Assembly: GCA_019429385.1 (NCBI GenBank)
Contig: JAHYIS010000015.1
Span: 1 to 50,382 of the forward strand
Source: ANME-2 cluster archaeon
GTDB lineage: Archaea > Halobacteriota > Methanosarcinia > Methanosarcinales > Methanocomedenaceae
DNA: 50,382 nucleotides
Reading direction: 5' to 3'
Numbering within the stretch: the first letter of the stretch is position 1; every line of letters begins with the position of its first letter. This document shows positions 4,072-41,061 of this stretch, one piece after another. Both the position numbers and the translations under genes were made by a program. A model generated the notes under the pieces. It did no database searches. It was given only the letters and a program-made list of their open reading frames with translations, and was not told the origin of the DNA.

Positions 4072-5454
4072 GTGATGGAAGAACTGTTGAGGACGTTCAC
4101 AATACCTGATAACACCAAAATGGAAGAGCGTTCCATTGTGGTGGATGGCGGAGCCATTATAGGCAATTATTGCGACATAGGTTTTGGCATAATTGCGGAT
4201 TCGGTAATAGCAGGCGAGAGGGTACGTATCGACGGTAATGTGATAGGGCCGCAAGAGATACGTATCGATATGTGGTCCCATGTTGGTGGTGATGTAAGGA
4301 CCAAAAACCAGGCCTTTATCGGTGAATTTGTTGACATTGACGGGAAACTGGTTGTGGGTGGCGACCTGGATATCGGCAAGGATGTGAAGATCGGTGGGGG
4401 TTTTGAGGCAAAAGGCTGGATAGTCGTCAGGAATCCCATTCCCGTTATTATATACATTTACCTTTATCTTACCGAAATGCTGAGATTGGGCAAGGGCGAG
4501 GAAGTTGAAAAAGCCCTGAGTGAACTTTTCAGTGACGACGATGATGACCTGTATGAGGGGAAACTGTTCATAATCCCCAGCGGTTCAAAGGTGGATATGG
4601 AAACCATCAGGGTACCTGACAGGGCAAATATCGGCAGTGGATGCCGGTTGATGGGGAATATCAGGGCCGCGTCACTGGTCATGGGGAATAATAATACGCT
4701 GTTCGGCAGCATCAAGACCATGGATGATATCGTCATCGGAGAAGGCAATACCATTCATGGGAACCTTGTCACCAGGGGGAATGTGCGCGTGGGTAAAGGC
4801 ACCCACATCCTTGGTGAGATCAACGGCGGCGTGGTCACGGTACATGAAGATGCAAAGGTGGACGGCCCGATGCGGGCCCCTGGCGGCGTGACAATCTCCC
4901 GGTTCGAGATAGAGAAAGAACCGAGAATGAGTGGTATCCTGGATCTGGTGCCACAACCAGCCGCGAAAAAGAAACCCAAAGAGGAACTATTTGTAATCCC
5001 TGAAAAGAGAATGAATACAGCCATCCGGCTTTCAGCCGGTGAAACCAGGACTGCTGCAAAACCAAAAACCACATCGTCGGGCACGACCGGGATAAAAGTT
5101 TCTGCAGGTAGTTCCAAAACCAAAAAAGCCATCACAGAAGCGAAGATCGCTGCTGAAATAGAAACAGCATCCGAAGGGGCACGGCCTGATGAAGTCATTC
5201 CGGCTGAGAAGACTGTTCCCCAAAAAGGTCCTTCCGGTAAAAAGACGACCGGAACAAAGACTGCACCTAAAACGAAAAAAACCTCGGTTGGTAATACTAA
5301 GGGCAAGAGGACAACTACAAAAAAGAAAGCAACAACTGGCCAAACTGCCGCAAAAGACAAAACTGCAAAGAAGACTGGAGCCAAAAGCACAAACAAGATA
5401 GCTCCTCCTAAAACTGTAAAGAAGACAGTTCCTAAAACCGCTCCTAAAAAATAA
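4072..5454 (+). CDS. Bactofilin-like polymer-forming protein with Lys/Thr/Ala-rich tail
   Basis: A 460-residue protein in two contrasting halves. Residues 1-290 are made of short beta-strand turns rich in Gly, Val and Ile (for example IVVDGGAIIGNYCDIG, NIGSGCRLMGNIRA, VRVGKGTHILGEINGG), typical of the right-handed beta-helix of polymer-forming cytoskeletal/bactofilin proteins, with a short hydrophobic stretch VIIYIYLYLTEML and an acidic DDDDD loop in between. From about residue 300 on it is low complexity and very basic, rich in Lys, Thr, Ala and Pro (KKTTGTKTAPKTKK and similar), like histone H1 or bacterial Hc1/AlgP tails. The start may be GTG 4072 or the next codon ATG 4075. Function is not known; assembly into filaments is inferred from the fold, and the tail could bind nucleic acid or polyanions. 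Confidence 0.8.
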   Translation: MMEELLRTFTIPDNTKMEERSIVVDGGAIIGNYCDIGFGIIADSVIAGERVRIDGNVIGPQEIRIDMWSHVGGDVRTKNQAFIGEFVDIDGKLVVGGDLDIGKDVKIGGGFEAKGWIVVRNPIPVIIYIYLYLTEMLRLGKGEEVEKALSELFSDDDDDLYEGKLFIIPSGSKVDMETIRVPDRANIGSGCRLMGNIRAASLVMGNNNTLFGSIKTMDDIVIGEGNTIHGNLVTRGNVRVGKGTHILGEINGGVVTVHEDAKVDGPMRAPGGVTISRFEIEKEPRMSGILDLVPQPAAKKKPKEELFVIPEKRMNTAIRLSAGETRTAAKPKTTSSGTTGIKVSAGSSKTKKAITEAKIAAEIETASEGARPDEVIPAEKTVPQKGPSGKKTTGTKTAPKTKKTSVGNTKGKRTTTKKKATTGQTAAKDKTAKKTGAKSTNKIAPPKTVKKTVPKTAPKK

Positions 5455-9178: not shown

Positions 9179-12100
9179 TCATACCGAAGCAGCATAAACA
9201 CTCTGTCCCTGCCCAAAATATGAATCATATACATGCTGATATACTACATCACACTTATTCTGATATACCTCTGGAGTATAAATTCGAGGCAGAAGATCTA
9301 ACGTCTCTTCGATAGATACAAAGACCGCAGCCCGGGATTGTTGTCTTTTACGCCAATCCAGCACCAACATCTCATCTTTTAGGGTTTCCAAAAGCTTTTG
9401 TGCCACCTTCTTAACCTGTGATTCTTCTTTCTCATTCAAAGTAATTTCCGGCCTGGTCAATAGATCAAAGATTGCCAATTCCTCTTCGCTAAGTTTTTCG
9501 GCAATTCCCCGTTTTTCTTCTGCATTGATTTCTTGAGCAAAAGCCATTAATTTCGTGAAAAAGAACTCCACATTATGTGAGCCAGAATTATACTCATCAA
9601 TCATTTCCTGGAACTTCTCCAGATAATCCATCCGACTTTTATTTAAACGAATCAACTGCGCCAATTTATTTTCAACTGAAGCTCTCAATTTTTCTGTTTC
9701 GATCCGTTTATGGCCTTTTTCAAAAGCTTCCTTTAATGCTTCAAAATTAACCTGGCTTAAATCCAGGTATTTGCTTACATCAGATTGTTCGGATGGATCC
9801 TGGATGATGTATCCTTCTGTAGCAATTGACTGATCTAACAAATCTTCAACTTCACCCATAATATCTGAGATATCAGCTTTCGGTGTCAGGGAACGAATTT
9901 TTACAGCTATTACTGTGATGAGTTTCTGGCTGGGTCCAAACTCATTTGCGGCTGGATCGGGGAGAATCGCCCGGTATATTTTAGCTACGTTCACTGCCAG
10001 TGACAGGTATTTTTTCTTCGAATCATCATTGACTAAAATTGCTTCAACAGCATTATCAAGTAATTTCACACGTTTAAAACCATCAGCAGCATGAATTTTA
10101 GCCAGGTTGATACCTCGTTTTTTACAAAAATCTGTTGTTTCATTGATCACCTGTTTCAGGTACTGAACAAGCTCACTTTTATCCCTTACCGGAGTTTCGC
10201 CCTCTTTGGTTTCTCCACCACCAGCAGATCCATAGATGGCCAGAGCTTTTTCCAGATTCCGGAATACTCCGATATAATCCACTATCAGGCCATTTAACTT
10301 ATCTCCAAAAACACGGTTTGCCCTGGCAATGGTCTGCATTAGCGTATGGTTGCGCATGGGTTTGTCGAGATAGATGGTAGAACAGGAAGGGACATCAAAA
10401 CCGGTCATCCACATAGCACAGACAAATACAATGCGAAATGGATCATTCGGATCTTTGAATTTTTTATCCAGGTCTTCATTTACGATCCGCCTTCTATGTG
10501 GGGCAATATCCAATCCCTTTTCTTTGAAGGTTTCAATTTCATTCTGCTCCTGGGATACCACAACTGCCATGTCGGTCTCTTTCATGAATTTGATTCTGAT
10601 CAGATGTTCTTTTCTCTCAATTTCATTAACGGAGACTGGTTTTGATTCAAGTTCGTTGAGATATTTTTGCCAGTACTCCTGCACTTTATCATACATCTTT
10701 ACCGCAGTTGCTTTATCGATGGAAATGACCATTGCCTTGCCAGTGGTCCCACGGCCCATGAAATGTGCAACAATATCTTCTGCGATCTTCTCAAGCCGGT
10801 CGTTCCTGGTAATAAGATGGTACTCCCGGGCAAATTCCCGGGCGACTTTCTTTTCCTGTTCTTCATCCAATTCTGCTTCTTCTATCAAGCATTCCAGATC
10901 TGTATTGAGGTCTTTATTGGTAAGCTGAAGTCCAGGGATGCGGTTTTCATAATACAGCGGTACTGTAGCTCCGTCCTCTACTGATTGTTTGAAATCATAG
11001 ATACTGATATAATCCCCGAATACTTCTTTTGTTTTTTCTTCGCCAATGATAAGGGGTGTACCGGTAAAGGCAATAAAGGCAGCATTGGGAAGAGCATTGC
11101 GCATATTGGTGGCAAGTATATCGTACTGACTGCGATGTGCTTCGTCAGTGATTACAATGATATCATCCCGGTCTGAGATCTTGGGGTAGGTTTCATCTTT
11201 ATCGGTTCGGAATTTCTGTATCAATGTGAAAATGAAACGGTGGTCTTCACTCAGGAGTTGTTGCAGGTGTTTGCCACTTGTGGCCTGTACGTGTTCTTCT
11301 GTTACGATTCCCGTATTGGCAAAATTTTTATAGATCTGGTCGTCCAGTTCCTGCCTGTCGGTTATCATAACAAAGGTATAGTTCCCGGGAATTTTGCGCA
11401 GTACCTTTTGGGAAAAGAAGATCATTGAGTAACTCTTCCCGCTTCCCTGTGTATGCCAGAATACTCCCAGTTTCCCCTGATTCTCTTTAATCTGTAATAG
11501 CGCTTCAGTGGCATTGTTCACACCCAGGTATTGATGGTTCTTTGCCACGAATTTTGCGAGACCGCCACTGATCTCACTGAAAATGGTGAAATTCTCTATA
11601 ATATCCAGCAGGCGGGAAGGTTCACAGGTCCCACGGATCATAGTATCCAGTGAAATGATACCCTCTTCCCCTTCGCTGTTGATCTTTTTCCATTCTGTGA
11701 AGTGCTCCCAAGCAGCGGTCATGCTGCCGATTTTGCTGATACTTCCATTTGAGAGTAGAATTAATGCATTGTACCAGAAGACCTGGGGGATGGTTGATTT
11801 ATAGTCGCGCAGATTATCCTGATATGCATGTTCCAGACGCCTGTGGGATGCTTTGAGTTCAATGAAAACGAGGGGCAGTCCATTGACAAAACCCACCAGA
11901 TCGGGCCGGCGCTTGTACATATCACCTGACACCCAGAACTGGGACGCAAGGAAGAAGTCATTATTTGAATGATTGTTCCAGTCAATGACCTGTACTGTTT
12001 CTACAATTTCTTCATTCTCATTATCCTGAAATGAGACTTTTACGCCATTTTTTAATAATTGGTATACTTCGCGGTTGGCATTGGCAGGGCTCATAATGCT

Positions 12101-12343
12101 TCTATCACGGGCCAGTTCTTCAATAGCCAGTTCAATGACTTCTTTGGGAAGAGCAGGATTTAATCGTTCCAATGCCAAACGTAATCGGGGCAATATCACT
12201 ACTTCGCTGGATGTCTCACGACCAAGTGTACAATCTTCACCGAATTTTTCATCAAAACAGTTGCCAGTTTCCCACCCTAATCCGGCAAATAGAGCAATTG
12301 CGGGTTGTTCAACAAGATTGTCTTCTGAGTAGTCATTTACCAT
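9179..12343 (-). CDS. hsdR: Type I restriction enzyme R subunit
   Basis: A 1054-residue HsdR, full length for the family. The nuclease domain has the PD-(D/E)XK core with Asp148 (RRPDLVGF), Glu162 and Lys164 (FIELKAS). The SF2 motor follows with Walker A HTQGSGKS (Lys303), the DEAH box ITDEAHRSQYD and FTGTP, then helicase motifs such as FVCAMWMTGFDVPSC and QTIARANRVF, and a helical C-terminus that would dock on the methylase. HsdR cleaves and translocates DNA only as part of an R2M2S complex. No intact hsdM or hsdS is present in the window; only a fused scar lies upstream at 15190-15465. The frame nevertheless looks undamaged, so the subunit is either recently orphaned, served by M and S genes elsewhere, or used differently. 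It starts 25 bases after the PD-(D/E)XK gene. Confidence 0.95.
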   Translation of the reverse strand: MVNDYSEDNLVEQPAIALFAGLGWETGNCFDEKFGEDCTLGRETSSEVVILPRLRLALERLNPALPKEVIELAIEELARDRSIMSPANANREVYQLLKNGVKVSFQDNENEEIVETVQVIDWNNHSNNDFFLASQFWVSGDMYKRRPDLVGFVNGLPLVFIELKASHRRLEHAYQDNLRDYKSTIPQVFWYNALILLSNGSISKIGSMTAAWEHFTEWKKINSEGEEGIISLDTMIRGTCEPSRLLDIIENFTIFSEISGGLAKFVAKNHQYLGVNNATEALLQIKENQGKLGVFWHTQGSGKSYSMIFFSQKVLRKIPGNYTFVMITDRQELDDQIYKNFANTGIVTEEHVQATSGKHLQQLLSEDHRFIFTLIQKFRTDKDETYPKISDRDDIIVITDEAHRSQYDILATNMRNALPNAAFIAFTGTPLIIGEEKTKEVFGDYISIYDFKQSVEDGATVPLYYENRIPGLQLTNKDLNTDLECLIEEAELDEEQEKKVAREFAREYHLITRNDRLEKIAEDIVAHFMGRGTTGKAMVISIDKATAVKMYDKVQEYWQKYLNELESKPVSVNEIERKEHLIRIKFMKETDMAVVVSQEQNEIETFKEKGLDIAPHRRRIVNEDLDKKFKDPNDPFRIVFVCAMWMTGFDVPSCSTIYLDKPMRNHTLMQTIARANRVFGDKLNGLIVDYIGVFRNLEKALAIYGSAGGGETKEGETPVRDKSELVQYLKQVINETTDFCKKRGINLAKIHAADGFKRVKLLDNAVEAILVNDDSKKKYLSLAVNVAKIYRAILPDPAANEFGPSQKLITVIAVKIRSLTPKADISDIMGEVEDLLDQSIATEGYIIQDPSEQSDVSKYLDLSQVNFEALKEAFEKGHKRIETEKLRASVENKLAQLIRLNKSRMDYLEKFQEMIDEYNSGSHNVEFFFTKLMAFAQEINAEEKRGIAEKLSEEELAIFDLLTRPEITLNEKEESQVKKVAQKLLETLKDEMLVLDWRKRQQSRAAVFVSIEETLDLLPRIYTPEVYQNKCDVVYQHVYDSYFGQGQSVYAASV

Positions 12344-35766: not shown

Positions 35767-36132
35767 TTGACTACAACAACTGAAATGCTTCAGGAGATAC
35801 TTGCCAACCTGAAAAATCTGGGAAGCATTGAAGCATGTGCAATAGCCAGTCGTGACGGTTTATTAATGAGTTCAGATATGCCCGAGGGTGTGCTGGGTGA
35901 AACATTCGCCGCCATGTCAGCTACTATGCTGGGAGCTGCTGAAACAGCTGCATCCGAACTCAATAAAGGAATACCGGGTCGAGTTATTGTCGAATCGAAA
36001 AACGGGAAATTGATTTGCATGGGTGCGGGACCAAAAGCACTGCTTGTTGTTATGACCGAGCATGATGCCGGACTCGGTTTGATTTTACTGGAAATTGAAA
36101 AGGCAGTTGCTCAAATAAAGGAAATCATTTAG
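35767..36132 (+). CDS. Roadblock/LC7 domain protein
   Basis: A 121-residue single-domain protein: LQEILANLKNLGSIEACAIASRDGLLMSSD, SATMLGAAETAASELNKG, and the C-terminal helix LLEIEKAVAQIKEII. Roadblock proteins (MglB, LC7) regulate or scaffold small GTPases and related NTPases. The start is TTG 35767, behind a ggtgg ribosome binding site. It is the first gene of a six-gene signalling cluster and ends eight bases before the KaiC-like gene, so its partner is probably that ATPase. Confidence 0.9.
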   Translation: MTTTTEMLQEILANLKNLGSIEACAIASRDGLLMSSDMPEGVLGETFAAMSATMLGAAETAASELNKGIPGRVIVESKNGKLICMGAGPKALLVVMTEHDAGLGLILLEIEKAVAQIKEII

Positions 36133-36140
36133 GGGTTTTT

Positions 36141-37589
36141 ATGAAGCAAGTTATATCAGGAATTTCCGGGCTTGATGAAATACTTGGTAAAGGTTTTATC
36201 AGGCCGTCCACTGTTCTTATTGGGGGTGTAATGGGTACAGGAAAGACAACATTTACCATGCAAAGCCTATTCAATGCCGCAAGGGAAGATGAGATATGCA
36301 TGTACATTACTGCCATATCAGAACCCATTGCCATGATAAACACGTTCATGTCGCGATTTAGTTTTTACAGTATTTCTATGATGGGGAAGGGGAACGTGAA
36401 GTATGTTCCACTTGACCCGGAACAGATCAAAAAGGGTACTTCAGCTATTGTCCAGGAGATCGAACGTAACATTGAAGTTATCAAACCGGACCGCATTGTC
36501 ATTGACCCGGTGAATGTGCTTACAAGCTGGATGGATGAGCGCGAGAAAAGGGAATTCTATTATCATCTATTTAATAAAATGAAAGGATGGAATTCACTGG
36601 TACTGATCACCGGTGAATTTTCCGGGGAACATATTTTAAAAGACGCGATCAGTTACATTGCAGATGGGGTTATCTACCTTTCAAATGAACGATTGAGACA
36701 TAAACGGGTGAGGCATCTGGAAGTACTCAAAATGAGGGGACAGAAGTATCTGTCCGGCAAACATTCATTTGAGATCACTGATGATGGTTTTGAGGTTTAT
36801 CCCTCGCTGCTTCCTGGTGCAAGGGAATCACTGACCTATGAGCATGTTCCCACGGGAATTAAAGGACTGGATAATATGACCAATGGTGGTTTTATCCGGG
36901 GTAGCAATGTGTTGTTGAGCGGTGGGAGCGGAACCGGAAAGACCTTGATAGGTCTCCAGTTCATTGTAGATGGTGCAACTATGGGCGAGCCAGGTGTCAT
37001 TGTTAGCCTTGAAGAGGATCCGGTGCTGCTTCGGAATAATGCGGCACGTTTTGGCTGGAACCTGGAAAAACTGGAAGCAGATGGTTTACTTAAAATAATA
37101 TATTCAAATGTTAGTCAACTTGACGTGAACAAGCTGGCTCTTGAAATGAAAACCATCATTGAGGAATTGGGTGCCAAACGCGTGGTCCTGGACGGGGTCA
37201 ATAATTTGAAGATAGCACTGCTGGACGATTTGAGTATGGGTGAATATATATCTGTCCTGTCACGGTATTTTTCATCCAGGAACATCATTTCGCTGTTTAC
37301 CAATGAGACCTCAGAACTAATGGGTTCTTCCACCATCACAGGAAATGGTACATCTGTAGTGATGGACAGCATCATCCTGTTGCGATATGTTGAAATCCAG
37401 AGCGAAATGAAAAAAACTATTTCTGTCCTGAAAATGAGGGGCAGCAACCATGATAAAGAGATCAGGGAACTGGTTATCAATCAAAAGGGTGTTGAAGTCA
37501 AACTACCCTTCACTGAATATTCTGGTTTGATGTCAGGTAATCCAGTAAAATCTCCATCACAGGCTTTTGTGGAAGCATTCAAAAAATAA
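36141..37589 (+). CDS. Tandem KaiC-like RecA-family ATPase
   Basis: A 482-residue two-domain protein. Domain I (about 1-225) has Walker A GGVMGTGKTT at residues 28-37 and Walker B-like DRIVIDPVN. Domain II (about 230-480) has Walker A GGSGTGKT at 261-268 and RVVLDGVNNL. After each domain comes the KaiC-type tail LEVLKMRGQ or SVLKMRGS. In domain II the paired catalytic glutamates are present (SLEEDP, Glu291/Glu292), but in domain I they are replaced (TAISEP, residues 57-62), so domain I may bind but not hydrolyse ATP. Homologues include cyanobacterial KaiC and archaeal KaiC-like kinases. It is placed between Roadblock and two membrane proteins. Confidence 0.9.
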   Translation: MKQVISGISGLDEILGKGFIRPSTVLIGGVMGTGKTTFTMQSLFNAAREDEICMYITAISEPIAMINTFMSRFSFYSISMMGKGNVKYVPLDPEQIKKGTSAIVQEIERNIEVIKPDRIVIDPVNVLTSWMDEREKREFYYHLFNKMKGWNSLVLITGEFSGEHILKDAISYIADGVIYLSNERLRHKRVRHLEVLKMRGQKYLSGKHSFEITDDGFEVYPSLLPGARESLTYEHVPTGIKGLDNMTNGGFIRGSNVLLSGGSGTGKTLIGLQFIVDGATMGEPGVIVSLEEDPVLLRNNAARFGWNLEKLEADGLLKIIYSNVSQLDVNKLALEMKTIIEELGAKRVVLDGVNNLKIALLDDLSMGEYISVLSRYFSSRNIISLFTNETSELMGSSTITGNGTSVVMDSIILLRYVEIQSEMKKTISVLKMRGSNHDKEIRELVINQKGVEVKLPFTEYSGLMSGNPVKSPSQAFVEAFKK

Positions 37590-37613
37590 CATATCGTTAG
37601 ATGGGTGATTATA

Positions 37614-37913
37614 ATGGACTATCATATAATGATTGACTTGCTTCATTTGTATACCTGGATACTGATAAGCATTTTAATCCTTATCACCGGAGCCATCGGT
37701 TTCTTTTACCAGAAAAAATTCAATATCAAGACTAATTATAATATATTTATTCTGTCTGCTGTTTTAACATTAAGCGTGGTTCTGAATGGAGGCGAGTTAT
37801 TAAATATTTATATTGTAGGTTTTATAAATGTTGAACTTATCGAACTATCAGGTATACTGTTCGCTTCATTTTTATCCTTAAAATTATTTAGAGCTATGAC
37901 AGGAGCCATGTGA
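37614..37913 (+). CDS. Small three-helix membrane protein A of the KaiC cluster
   Basis: About 99 residues from ATG 37614 with three predicted membrane spans: YTWILISILILITGAIGFFY, FILSAVLTLSVVL and LIELSGILFASFLSL. No recognised domain. It overlaps the next membrane protein gene by four bases, so the two are probably made in equal amounts and may form a complex. Function unknown; location suggests it feeds or anchors the signalling proteins around it. Confidence 0.75.
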   Translation: MDYHIMIDLLHLYTWILISILILITGAIGFFYQKKFNIKTNYNIFILSAVLTLSVVLNGGELLNIYIVGFINVELIELSGILFASFLSLKLFRAMTGAM

Positions 37914-38239
37914 TGCATCAGGTATCAGGATTGCTGTATGATGAGTTTTCCAGTATAGCTCTTTTATTGATAATTTATGTGTTATACCATCTCAGCCGGC
38001 GTCTGGGTGAAGCCCTGCAGATGAAACCGTATTATTACCTATTTATTATTGGTGGTATCATAATTTTCATTTCCTGGATGGCAAATTCTATAATACTGTT
38101 CAATCAATCATATATCTCTGATAATGAAATCGTGAAGTACATATTCATAGTAAAATTGATTCGTTCATTTGGTGTGACCCTATGTCTGTTACCGGCCTTG
38201 AAATACTGGGGATGGCTGATAAAAGAGATTTTAAATTGA
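37910..38239 (+). CDS. Small three-helix membrane protein B of the KaiC cluster
   Basis: 109 residues starting at GTG 37910 or the adjacent ATG 37913, with an aggag ribosome binding site inside the end of the previous gene. Three hydrophobic spans: IALLLIIYVLYHL, YYLFIIGGIIIFISWMA and IVKLIRSFGVTLCLLPALKYW. No known family recognised. It stands between membrane protein A and the sensor kinase, 16 bases before the latter. Confidence 0.75.
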   Translation: MMHQVSGLLYDEFSSIALLLIIYVLYHLSRRLGEALQMKPYYYLFIIGGIIIFISWMANSIILFNQSYISDNEIVKYIFIVKLIRSFGVTLCLLPALKYWGWLIKEILN

Positions 38240-38255
38240 TGAATATGAGGACGAT

Positions 38256-40583
38256 ATGCAGACATCCATCAGGAAAAGACTTGCATTTGCATTTTTAGTA
38301 ATTGTTTTAGCTTCTTTTCTCATAGCTGGCGGAGTAGGGTTTTATTTATTCAATACTATGATACAAGCAACCATCCAGCATGATGTTGAACATGACCTGG
38401 ATGCGGCCGATATCATATTTCATACCCGGTTAATTGATACCGAGGAAATTGTAGAGTATTCGTCAGGTTATTCACAGATACGTGACCCTCTTCTCAACAA
38501 TGATCATGCTACCCTTCGGCAGGGACTTTTTGACTTATACAATGAACGTTTCAATAATACGATCGAAATTCTTACTGTTACTGATAACCATGGGGTAGTG
38601 GTTGCCAGGGCCAGAAATCCTGCAATGTTCGGGGATTCGTTGGAAAACAACCCCCTCATCAGGCAGGCATTAATGGGTGAAACAGTATCGTCTGTAGAAA
38701 TTATCAGCCGCGAAGAACTTCTCAAAGAGAATGAATTACTTGCCCAACAGGCATATATGGAGTTCACACTCACCCCGAAAGCAAAACCTCGAAACGAAAA
38801 CCACTCAACTTCGGGCATGGTATTGATGGCGGCCACTCCCATATATGACGATAACGGTGCCCTGGCAGGAGTGCTGTACGGAGCAGACCTGATTAACCGT
38901 GATTACGCAATTGTGGACCTGATTAAAGACGCATTATACATGGATGAGATGGACGATGGAAGGAATGTGGGTACTGTGACCATCTTCCAGGATGATTTCA
39001 GGATATCTACGAATGTTTTGACAGATGAGAGGGAACGGGCCATAACCACCAGGGTATCGCAGGAGGTCAACGATGCAGTACTGGAGAGGGGAGAATCATG
39101 GAATGACAGGGCTTTTGTGGTGAATGCCTGGTATGTTACTGCCTATAAACCGATACGCAATTTTGAAGGCGATATCATTGGTATATTGTACGTGGGGATA
39201 CTTGAGCAGCCATATATTGATGCGGGATATAAGATACTATTAGCCTATATCGGCTTCCTGTTATTAGGTTTTCTCATTTCTATGTTTATATCACGCTATT
39301 TTACAGCATCTATCATCAGCCCTATCAATAAATTAATAGAAGGTACTGAAGCAATAGCAAAAGGGGAGTTTAAAGGCTTACAAGTAACCACACATGATGA
39401 AATCGGGAAACTCTCAACAGCATTTAATGATATGGCTGTGGAATTACAACAGACAATGGCTAAACTGATCTCATCTAAGAATGAAGTAGAGACCATATTT
39501 GAAAGTGTCAGTGATGTTGCCTGCGCCCTGGATATGGATATGAGAATCACCTTTGCGAATAGAATGGCAAAAGACCTGTATGGTGATGATATCATTGGAA
39601 AATCCTGTTATCAGGTATTTGAAGGAAGAAGTGAGGTGTGCGATGACTGCCCTTCGATTATATCGATGGAAACGGGAAATATCACACGGACGATCCACAT
39701 TATTACCGATGAGGTTGGTGCTTCCTCCTATTTTGAGATTACCGGTTCACCGGTAAGGGATGAACAGGACAATATTACAGGCACGGTAATGATACGCAGG
39801 GATATTACCGAGCAAAAGACACTCGAAAACGAATTAAGGGAATCATACGTGAATCTTGAGACCACTTATGAAGAACTGAAACAGCTTGATACAATGAAAT
39901 CTGAGCTGGTTGCCAATATATCTCATGAAATACGCACGCCATTGACTTCAATCAGGGGATATACTGAACTGTTGCTGGATGGTACATTAGGCAAGACCAC
40001 GGAGCAACAGCTTAAAAGCATGAAAGTGGTGCTGAGAAATGTTGATAGACTAACCCGGATGATATCAAATGTCCTGGACCTGTCCAGGTTTGACCAGCAG
40101 GAACGGGTGGTCAGAGAAGTTGGACTGAAGAAGATTATCAAGCATGCTGTCGATGATTTAGGGAAAGAGGCAAATGATAAGGGTATCGATGTGACTGTTG
40201 AGGTGTCGGATACCCTGGTACTGGAATGTGATGCTGATGCACTGGAGCAGGTGTTTATTAATCTGCTGGGAAATGCAATAAAATTCACCAATAACGGTGG
40301 TAGTGTATCCATACATGCATATTACGAGGATAAACATCATATTCATGTTGAGATTCGTGATACCGGGATTGGGATTCCTGAAGATAAATTTGAGTTTATA
40401 TTTGACAGGTTTTACCAGGTAGATGCCAGTTCTACCCGCAACTACGGGGGCACCGGTCTGGGACTTGCCATAACGAAAAAGATAGTGGAATGGCATAAAG
40501 GGGCCATATGGGTACGGAACAATCCGGATGGGAGCAATGGAAGTGTTTTTCACATTATTCTTCCAATAAAGCATAATGAATGA
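38256..40583 (+). CDS. Membrane sensor histidine kinase (Cache-HAMP-PAS-HisKA-HATPase)
   Basis: A 775-residue sensor kinase. A transmembrane helix at about 8-32 and a second at about 327-347 (LLAYIGFLLLGFLISMFIS) flank an extracytoplasmic Cache-type domain (TVTDNHGVVVARARNP, AATPIYDDNGALAGVLYGADL). HAMP follows (SPINKLIEGTEAIAKGEF), then a PAS domain (about 415-525) with a CDDCP motif, then HisKA with the phospho-accepting His557 in NISHEIRTPLTSIRGY, and HATPase with NLLGNAIKF, DTGIGIPE and GGTGLGLAI. All catalytic boxes are intact. It senses an outside ligand and probably phosphorylates the receiver encoded next. RBS gagga precedes ATG 38256. Confidence 0.94.
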   Translation: MQTSIRKRLAFAFLVIVLASFLIAGGVGFYLFNTMIQATIQHDVEHDLDAADIIFHTRLIDTEEIVEYSSGYSQIRDPLLNNDHATLRQGLFDLYNERFNNTIEILTVTDNHGVVVARARNPAMFGDSLENNPLIRQALMGETVSSVEIISREELLKENELLAQQAYMEFTLTPKAKPRNENHSTSGMVLMAATPIYDDNGALAGVLYGADLINRDYAIVDLIKDALYMDEMDDGRNVGTVTIFQDDFRISTNVLTDERERAITTRVSQEVNDAVLERGESWNDRAFVVNAWYVTAYKPIRNFEGDIIGILYVGILEQPYIDAGYKILLAYIGFLLLGFLISMFISRYFTASIISPINKLIEGTEAIAKGEFKGLQVTTHDEIGKLSTAFNDMAVELQQTMAKLISSKNEVETIFESVSDVACALDMDMRITFANRMAKDLYGDDIIGKSCYQVFEGRSEVCDDCPSIISMETGNITRTIHIITDEVGASSYFEITGSPVRDEQDNITGTVMIRRDITEQKTLENELRESYVNLETTYEELKQLDTMKSELVANISHEIRTPLTSIRGYTELLLDGTLGKTTEQQLKSMKVVLRNVDRLTRMISNVLDLSRFDQQERVVREVGLKKIIKHAVDDLGKEANDKGIDVTVEVSDTLVLECDADALEQVFINLLGNAIKFTNNGGSVSIHAYYEDKHHIHVEIRDTGIGIPEDKFEFIFDRFYQVDASSTRNYGGTGLGLAITKKIVEWHKGAIWVRNNPDGSNGSVFHIILPIKHNE

Positions 40584-40592
40584 AATGTATAG

Positions 40593-40603
40593 CTATAAAT
40601 AAT
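40593..40603 (+). promoter_or_regulatory. Box A of the receiver gene
   Basis: ctataaataat lies about 45 bases ahead of the TTG start of the receiver gene. The receiver could thus be transcribed on its own as well as with the kinase. Confidence 0.45.
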
Positions 40604-40643
40604 ATAAACTTCAGAAATAGATATAAGCCGGAGGAGAACTTTT

Positions 40644-41012
40644 TTGGCAAAGATATTGATAGTGGATGATGAACCTGATACCGTAGACCTTGTGAAACTT
40701 GTACTGGAAACCGAGGGATTTCAAACCTCTGTTGCATACAACGGAGAGGAAGCTCTTGAAAAGGTCAAGAGCGATAAACCTGATCTTGTGTTACTTGACA
40801 TCATGATGCCAAAAATGGATGGCTGGGCAATCAGAAAGAAGATCATCAATGACGAAGAGACCCGGGACATACCTATTGTCATGTTGACTGCCAAGGCCCA
40901 GCCGATCGATAAGATGATCGGGTTGCATGTGATAGGTGTAACGGATTATATTACCAAGCCGTTCGGCCGGAAAGAAATCATTGATAGTGTGAAGAAGGCG
41001 CTTGGGGAGTAA
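40644..41012 (+). CDS. CheY-like response regulator receiver protein
   Basis: A 122-residue stand-alone receiver beginning at TTG with a ggaggag ribosome binding site. Acidic pocket Asp8/Asp9, phospho-acceptor Asp52 (LLDIMMPKMDG), Thr82 (MLTAKA) and Lys105 (TKPFG) are all present. There is no output domain, so it must act by binding a partner, perhaps the Roadblock/KaiC proteins or a transcription component. It lies 60 bases after the kinase gene. Confidence 0.93.
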   Translation: MAKILIVDDEPDTVDLVKLVLETEGFQTSVAYNGEEALEKVKSDKPDLVLLDIMMPKMDGWAIRKKIINDEETRDIPIVMLTAKAQPIDKMIGLHVIGVTDYITKPFGRKEIIDSVKKALGE

Positions 41013-41045
41013 GTACGGCGTATTATTTGCCGGTTCAGGCGGTAG

Positions 41046-41061
41046 ATATATTTATATTATC
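41046..41061 (+). promoter_or_regulatory. Box A of tyrS
   Basis: An atatatttatattatc element 43-58 bases ahead of ATG 41104, followed by an aggtgg ribosome binding site, gives a leader of about 20 bases. Confidence 0.5.

Follow-up and report, generated by a model that had tools for sequence, protein, structure and literature searches.

A conserved ANME-2 gene cluster of Roadblock, double-domain KaiC, two small membrane proteins, a sensor kinase, and a stand-alone receiver

Described systems and how the cluster compares

Receivers without an output domain are common in archaea, and KaiC proteins have been put forward as hubs, with few of their partners known. The cyanobacterial KaiABC-SasA-RpaA clock combines a double KaiC with a histidine kinase and a receiver, and ArlH is the single-domain, KaiC-like ATPase of the archaellum, which sits on the ArlJ membrane platform. 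The actinobacterial conservons (Cvn/AGPS) comprise a kinase, a Roadblock protein, a Ras-like GTPase, and, in some, accessory proteins (PMC13343842). KaiC-centred signalling hubs have been proposed for archaea (Makarova et al. 2017, cited in PMC5847659), iKaiC-REC fusions have been reported from Methanosarcinaceae (PMC5847659), and stand-alone receivers, KaiC hubs, and Roadblock and KaiC genes near pilus loci have been described (PMC5847659, PMC4858521). In Myxococcus, the MglA-MglB-RomR polarity module places a Roadblock protein and a receiver around a nucleotide switch (PMC6785124).

Here we analysed a six-gene cluster in a stretch of 50,382 nucleotides (the window). The genome to which it belongs, as contig C15, has 2.4 Mb in 70 contigs and is estimated to be 100% complete. 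Among public sequences, those most closely related to the cluster KaiC bear the labels "ANME-2 cluster archaeon" and "Methanosarcinales archaeon". The conservon is the described system with the nearest functional resemblance; like the cluster, it unites a histidine kinase, an MglB-type Roadblock, and a nucleotide-hydrolysing switch in one operon. The conservon switch is a Ras-like GTPase, whereas that of the cluster is a KaiC ATPase; we saw no CvnC-type gene in the cluster, which has, in its place, two membrane proteins and a receiver. The cluster Roadblock has a weak sequence match to CvnB5, yet the cluster is not a conservon member, because a Ras-like GTPase (CvnD) is absent from it and from its close flanks.

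The other systems share fewer elements or different ones. Archaeal KaiC hubs and iKaiC-REC proteins also tie a KaiC-family ATPase to two-component parts and join a receiver to a KaiC-type protein, but in the cluster KaiC is double-domain and keeps both P-loops, the receiver is a protein by itself and of a distinct subfamily, and a Roadblock and the membrane pair are present. The cyanobacterial clock has the double KaiC, kinase, and receiver in common with the cluster; in contrast, no KaiB was found in the cluster genome (no PF07689 match), the T432 site is a valine, the kinase is a Cache/PAS membrane protein, and the receiver has no DNA-binding domain. ArlH is likewise a KaiC-type ATPase paired with an integral membrane protein, whereas the cluster contains no archaellum genes, and its predicted three-helix membrane proteins have no similarity that we found to solved proteins. 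Set against the MglA-MglB-RomR module, the cluster has a KaiC ATPase in place of a small GTPase and no sign of polarity. A polarity switch, raised in the sequence-only reading of the window, was rejected, as the cluster holds no Ras/MglA-type GTPase and nothing else that points to polarity. Literature on KaiC together with ANME, Roadblock, or Methanoperedens yielded no description of the cluster. Across the literature searched, which had Makarova et al. 2017 outside its scope, we found no description of the six-gene assembly, the families of the membrane pair, or the receiver subfamily; KaiC as an archaeal hub was already proposed.

Gene layout, domains, and the membrane pair

All six open reading frames lie on the plus strand at 35767-41012, and the gene set, the strand, and all five gap lengths agree exactly with those read earlier from the sequence. 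A Roadblock/LC7 protein (35767..36132, 121 aa), with a TTG start behind GGTGG, is followed after 8 bases by a double-domain KaiC-family ATPase (36141..37589, 482 aa). The first small membrane protein, TMA (37614..37913; alternative start GTG 37605), begins 24 bases further on, counted from ATG 37614, and overlaps the second, TMB (37910..38239), by 4 bases. A gap of 16 bases separates TMB from a membrane sensor histidine kinase (38256..40583, 775 aa), and 60 bases separate the kinase from a stand-alone receiver (40644..41012, 122 aa). Elsewhere, the window encodes a type I restriction enzyme HsdR (9179-12343) and a protein with a bactofilin-like stretch (4072-5454).

Pfam confirmed the Roadblock, KaiC, kinase, and receiver domains. 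The Roadblock assignment is based on Robl_LC7 (E 3.2e-15, 56.1 bits versus a gathering score of 23), solved Roadblock relatives, and orthologues that are 79-90% identical and stand upstream of KaiC in all same-family loci. The kinase has extracytoplasmic sCache_3, HAMP, PAS_4, HisKA, and HATPase_c domains, with the phospho-histidine H557 in SHEIRTP, and its same-family orthologues in place are 61-81% identical; the receiver matches Response_reg (E 4.3e-29). The KaiC assignment is based on two stretches matching Pfam KaiC (E 5e-95), on PDB KaiC alignments, and on conservation across 69 KaiCs. The "tandem KaiC" of the sequence-only reading thus holds for the domains, which are two, but not for the genes, as a single gene encodes both.

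Both RecA-like KaiC domains have Walker A and keep their P-loops. The catalytic Glu pair is kept in CII (E291/E292), and in CI it is S60/E61, the first Glu being replaced by Ser. Across the 69 KaiCs and the PDB KaiC alignments, the equivalent of S431 (S405) is conserved, and the equivalent of T432 (V406) is at a variable position. As KaiB was not found in the genome and the T432 phosphosite is absent, we rejected a circadian clock, and a slow clock of the KaiC type is unlikely. The protein scores 57.9 bits against the ArlH equivalog cut-off of 215, and neither its genome nor most of the same-genus genomes with the cluster encode an ArlH over that cut-off. The genome has nine Roadblock genes. 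On contig C1, one is located just upstream of two KaiC-type genes (L232:4829-7058), and on contig C12, a KaiC overlaps a weak, tentative Roadblock-like gene downstream (L233:2806-4034); the Roadblock-KaiC pairing therefore recurs in this genome, tentatively so on C12.

The kinase-receiver spacer (40584..40643, plus strand) contains a TATA-like run (TATAAATAATAT) and GGAGGAG. The window, L046, and L048 have almost the same spacer sequence, and the spacers of L050 and L051 resemble it; this is more conservation than a plain spacer requires. The receiver may have an internal promoter of its own at the TATA-like run, and the cluster is perhaps not transcribed as one unit. Promoters between each of the genes had been named earlier as a sign of separate expression, and this one, before the receiver, is the internal promoter suggested. 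On the 3' side of the receiver, a terminator-like hairpin followed by a T-rich tract (41024..41048, plus strand) is a consensus match only, the regional count of such sites being not above that in shuffles.

The membrane proteins were described earlier as being of unknown family, and our searches agree. Neither TMA nor TMB has a Pfam match at E 0.01, an NCBIfam match over cut-off (run on the window proteins), a PDB fold match with E<0.001, or a credible hit in the PDB profile search. The two families gave weak Pfam matches to MASE3, RseC, and TMEM174. MASE3 was rejected for TMA, as the match (best E 8e-4, with 11 of 44 members matching at E<=1) was not taken as credible, and assignment of either protein to a known fold was rejected on the same fold, profile, and Pfam results. 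AlphaFold2, using alignments of 44 to 48 members, predicts with good confidence that each forms three membrane helices (TMA: pLDDT 86.2, pTM 0.76; TMB: pLDDT 90.5, pTM 0.78). Judging from their profiles (hhalign probability 84.9%), the two are probably related families. They have a common topology, in which the first loop and the C-terminus are conserved and net positively charged and the second loop is variable; the conserved faces are therefore predicted to be cytosolic, on KaiC's side. Invariant residues of TMB are S29, G33, Y99, W100, and W102.

Gene order and the receiver subfamily across genomes

Among the 69 TMB loci read, 30 have the order Roadblock-KaiC-TMA-TMB-kinase-receiver (29 counted by script and L152 by locus map), and these belong to two archaeal families, the window's own (f1) and f5. 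The compared genomes are mostly drafts in many contigs, and every sufficiently long locus of the same genus or family that carries the cluster KaiC has the full order. The flanks are CitG-DUF447 and TyrRS in f1; f5 has different ones, with LeuRS upstream in L052 and L055 and DUF2150 downstream in L055. Since the full order occurs in two families and in differing chromosomal settings, the cluster is not a chance line-up. Spacing is conserved as well: the distance from the end of KaiC to the start of TMA is at most ~30 bases in almost every intact locus, and the TMA-TMB overlap is usually 4 bases. In many f5 loci, TMB and the kinase are ~900 bases further apart; in L052 and L053, the two read, this additional DNA encodes a phosphonate-binding-type lipoprotein just before the kinase (L052:3766-4698, L053:9507-10427). 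This lipoprotein is perhaps a ligand-binding partner of the sensor kinase. A gene of the same type also directly precedes a sensor kinase in L201 (3218-4171).

The KaiC-TMA-TMB core is more widespread: it occurs in four of the order's families and also in f15, a family of another class. We take f2 to be ANME-2c-like, f4 Methanosarcinaceae, f5 Methanoperedenaceae, and f15 Methanocellales. The second cluster of f5 is mostly KaiC-TMA-TMB-receiver-kinase, f2 loci have KaiC-TMA-TMB-kinase or KaiC-TMA-TMB by itself, and f4 genera g27 and g19 have Roadblock-KaiC-TMA-TMB. In f15 a single-domain KaiC precedes TMA-TMB, and the receiver is next in two of three genomes. These f15 cores (L134-L136) lie directly behind ABC transporter genes; in L135 a substrate-binding protein, a permease, and an ATPase come consecutively before the core. 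Many f2 loci and the second cluster of f5 have no Roadblock gene beside KaiC, the receiver is at a separate locus in f2 and f4-g27, and kinase and receiver can lie apart from the core, as in f4-g19 (L204 versus L132). The sequence-only reading held that homologues scattered in related genomes would speak against a system; no such scatter is seen in f1 and f5, and it is partly true of f2, f4-g19, and f4-g27, where the receiver or kinase is elsewhere.

Loss of the genes is also informative. In L206 (6028-6815, G012:C31, f1), the N-terminal start of Roadblock is fused in frame to the last kinase residues and followed by the receiver, while KaiC, TMA, and TMB are gone and the flanks are unchanged; this is a natural deletion, and the loss occurred as a block. 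The other f1 genomes without TMB also lack the cluster KaiC. One f4 locus, with NAD synthetase and a PIN/Zn-ribbon gene as flanks (read from the sequences), exists in three states: Roadblock-KaiC-TMA-TMB, TMA-TMB only, and KaiC only. A quick tree arranges the TMA-linked KaiCs mostly by family and shows losses in f4. One f4 g19 genome has a further cluster (L133) whose KaiC groups with f1, possibly through lateral transfer. The conserved order in two families, the block loss, and the shared phyletic pattern support the earlier proposal that the six genes behave as one system.

The cluster receivers form a subfamily of their own. The window receiver has D8, D9, D52, T82, and K105 and the subfamily motif at D89-V96, and three of these features (the Asp, the acidic pair, and the Lys) are conserved across the cluster receivers. 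The cluster receivers carry D[KR]xxGLHV (in a few, K is replaced by T or M) before (A/V)xDYI(T/I)KPFG, and they are one residue longer before DYITKPF (GLHVIGVTDY versus the ordinary GLEIGADDY), which appears as a one-residue insertion in the alignment with a CovR-like receiver. Unlinked receivers in the same loci lack D[KR]xxGLHV. As a DNA pattern, which does not capture variants like DTM/DMM or CGN-coded R, the motif occurs in 88 of the class's 238 genomes, and a reversed control pattern had 0 matches. Copy number per genome is 0-3 and most often one; most f5 genomes holding two clusters have two. TMB and the receiver pattern are both present in 53 genomes and both absent from 141, with TMB only in 9 and the receiver only in 35; the association (Fisher p 3e-20, not corrected for relatedness) is only indicative because the genomes are related. 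Of the receiver-only genomes, 27 of 35 are from one genus (f4 g16), where the receiver occurs without TMA and TMB.

Proposed signal flow, possible output, and meaning

Our best explanation, which we hold to be somewhat more likely than not, is a membrane-anchored KaiC signalling unit in which the signal runs from kinase to receiver to KaiC, with TMA-TMB as platform and Roadblock as adaptor. The Cache domain would sense a small molecule outside the cell, and the kinase would pass phosphate to the stand-alone receiver, a step suggested by gene linkage, as is the next. Having no output domain, the receiver would act on the double-domain KaiC, or on KaiC with Roadblock, and its phosphorylation would set the ATP-bound or autophosphorylated state of KaiC. 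TMA and TMB, as a putative diverged duplicate pair, would form the membrane platform whose conserved cytosolic loop and C-terminus hold KaiC. By analogy with MglB-type Roadblocks on Ras-like GTPases, Roadblock may be a dimeric adaptor on KaiC. The earlier reading had named Roadblock or KaiC as candidate partners of the receiver. In two f15 loci (L135, L136) and one f5 locus (L139), the receiver adjoins KaiC-TMA-TMB without a kinase, which favours KaiC.

The same three loci weigh against the main rival, in which the signal flows in reverse: KaiC, Roadblock, and TMA-TMB would sense the energy or membrane state and modulate the kinase (cf. KaiC-SasA and CvnF-CvnA), and the receiver would signal elsewhere. 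This arrangement would suit the several f2 loci with KaiC-TMA-TMB-kinase and no adjacent receiver, the sensor domains that vary while the core stays, and the accessory CvnF8, which stimulates its conservon kinase (PMC13343842). However, the kinase has its own Cache sensor and the f4-g27 core has no adjacent kinase, and we consider reverse flow rather improbable.

Another proposal concerns the output, which would be a surface filament, with the archaellum or type IV pilus motor tuned via the KaiC-like ArlH or an assembly ATPase. It draws on f4, where g16 (L198, L199, L210, L211), g7, and g27 have the subfamily receiver beside a larger receiver fusion, i.e., a fused response regulator, and near FlaC/D/E, archaellin-like, and ArlH genes; the f4 receiver loci (L198, L199, L201-L203, L205, L210, L211) are mostly near archaellum genes, and those of g16 also hold a GvpD/KaiC-like ATPase. 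The fusion resembles, in size and taxon, the iKaiC-REC proteins of Methanosarcinaceae (PMC5847659); a profile comparison did not confirm its N-terminal half as an inactive KaiC (prob ~3%), and that assignment was dropped. KaiC and Roadblock genes have also been reported near archaeal pilus loci (PMC4858521), and the haloarchaeal KaiC homologue CirA affects motility (PMC13286277). Our best guess for the f4 output is pili or archaella. Nevertheless, archaella cannot be the general output and archaellum control was rejected as the core function, since no ArlH exceeds the cut-off in the window's genome or in most genomes of its genus that have the cluster. Moreover, we recognised no pilus gene among the cluster genes, and all three secretion-type ATPases of the genome are encoded on contigs other than C15. 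A filament output is improbable overall. That the genes are ordinary neighbours, a simple two-component pair kept by slow rearrangement next to a KaiC operon unrelated to it, would fit the separable kinase and receiver of f4-g19 and the possible promoter before the receiver, but is very improbable given the order kept despite different flanks in two families, the linkage of the receiver subfamily to the core in another class, and the block loss.

The cluster points to a specific receiver subfamily, a specific set of KaiCs, and two new membrane families that travel together, which opens both a route from receiver to KaiC and a KaiC bound to the membrane to direct testing. KaiC seems to partner Roadblock here in the position that a small GTPase has elsewhere. 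More speculatively, there might be a class of membrane-embedded, ATP-driven switches in which a KaiC ring docks on a duplicated three-helix membrane pair and has its state set by a receiver of its own and by Roadblock as adaptor. Such a class would be the archaeal equivalent of the Ras/Roadblock conservons, built on KaiC and ancestral in Methanosarcinales-type archaea.
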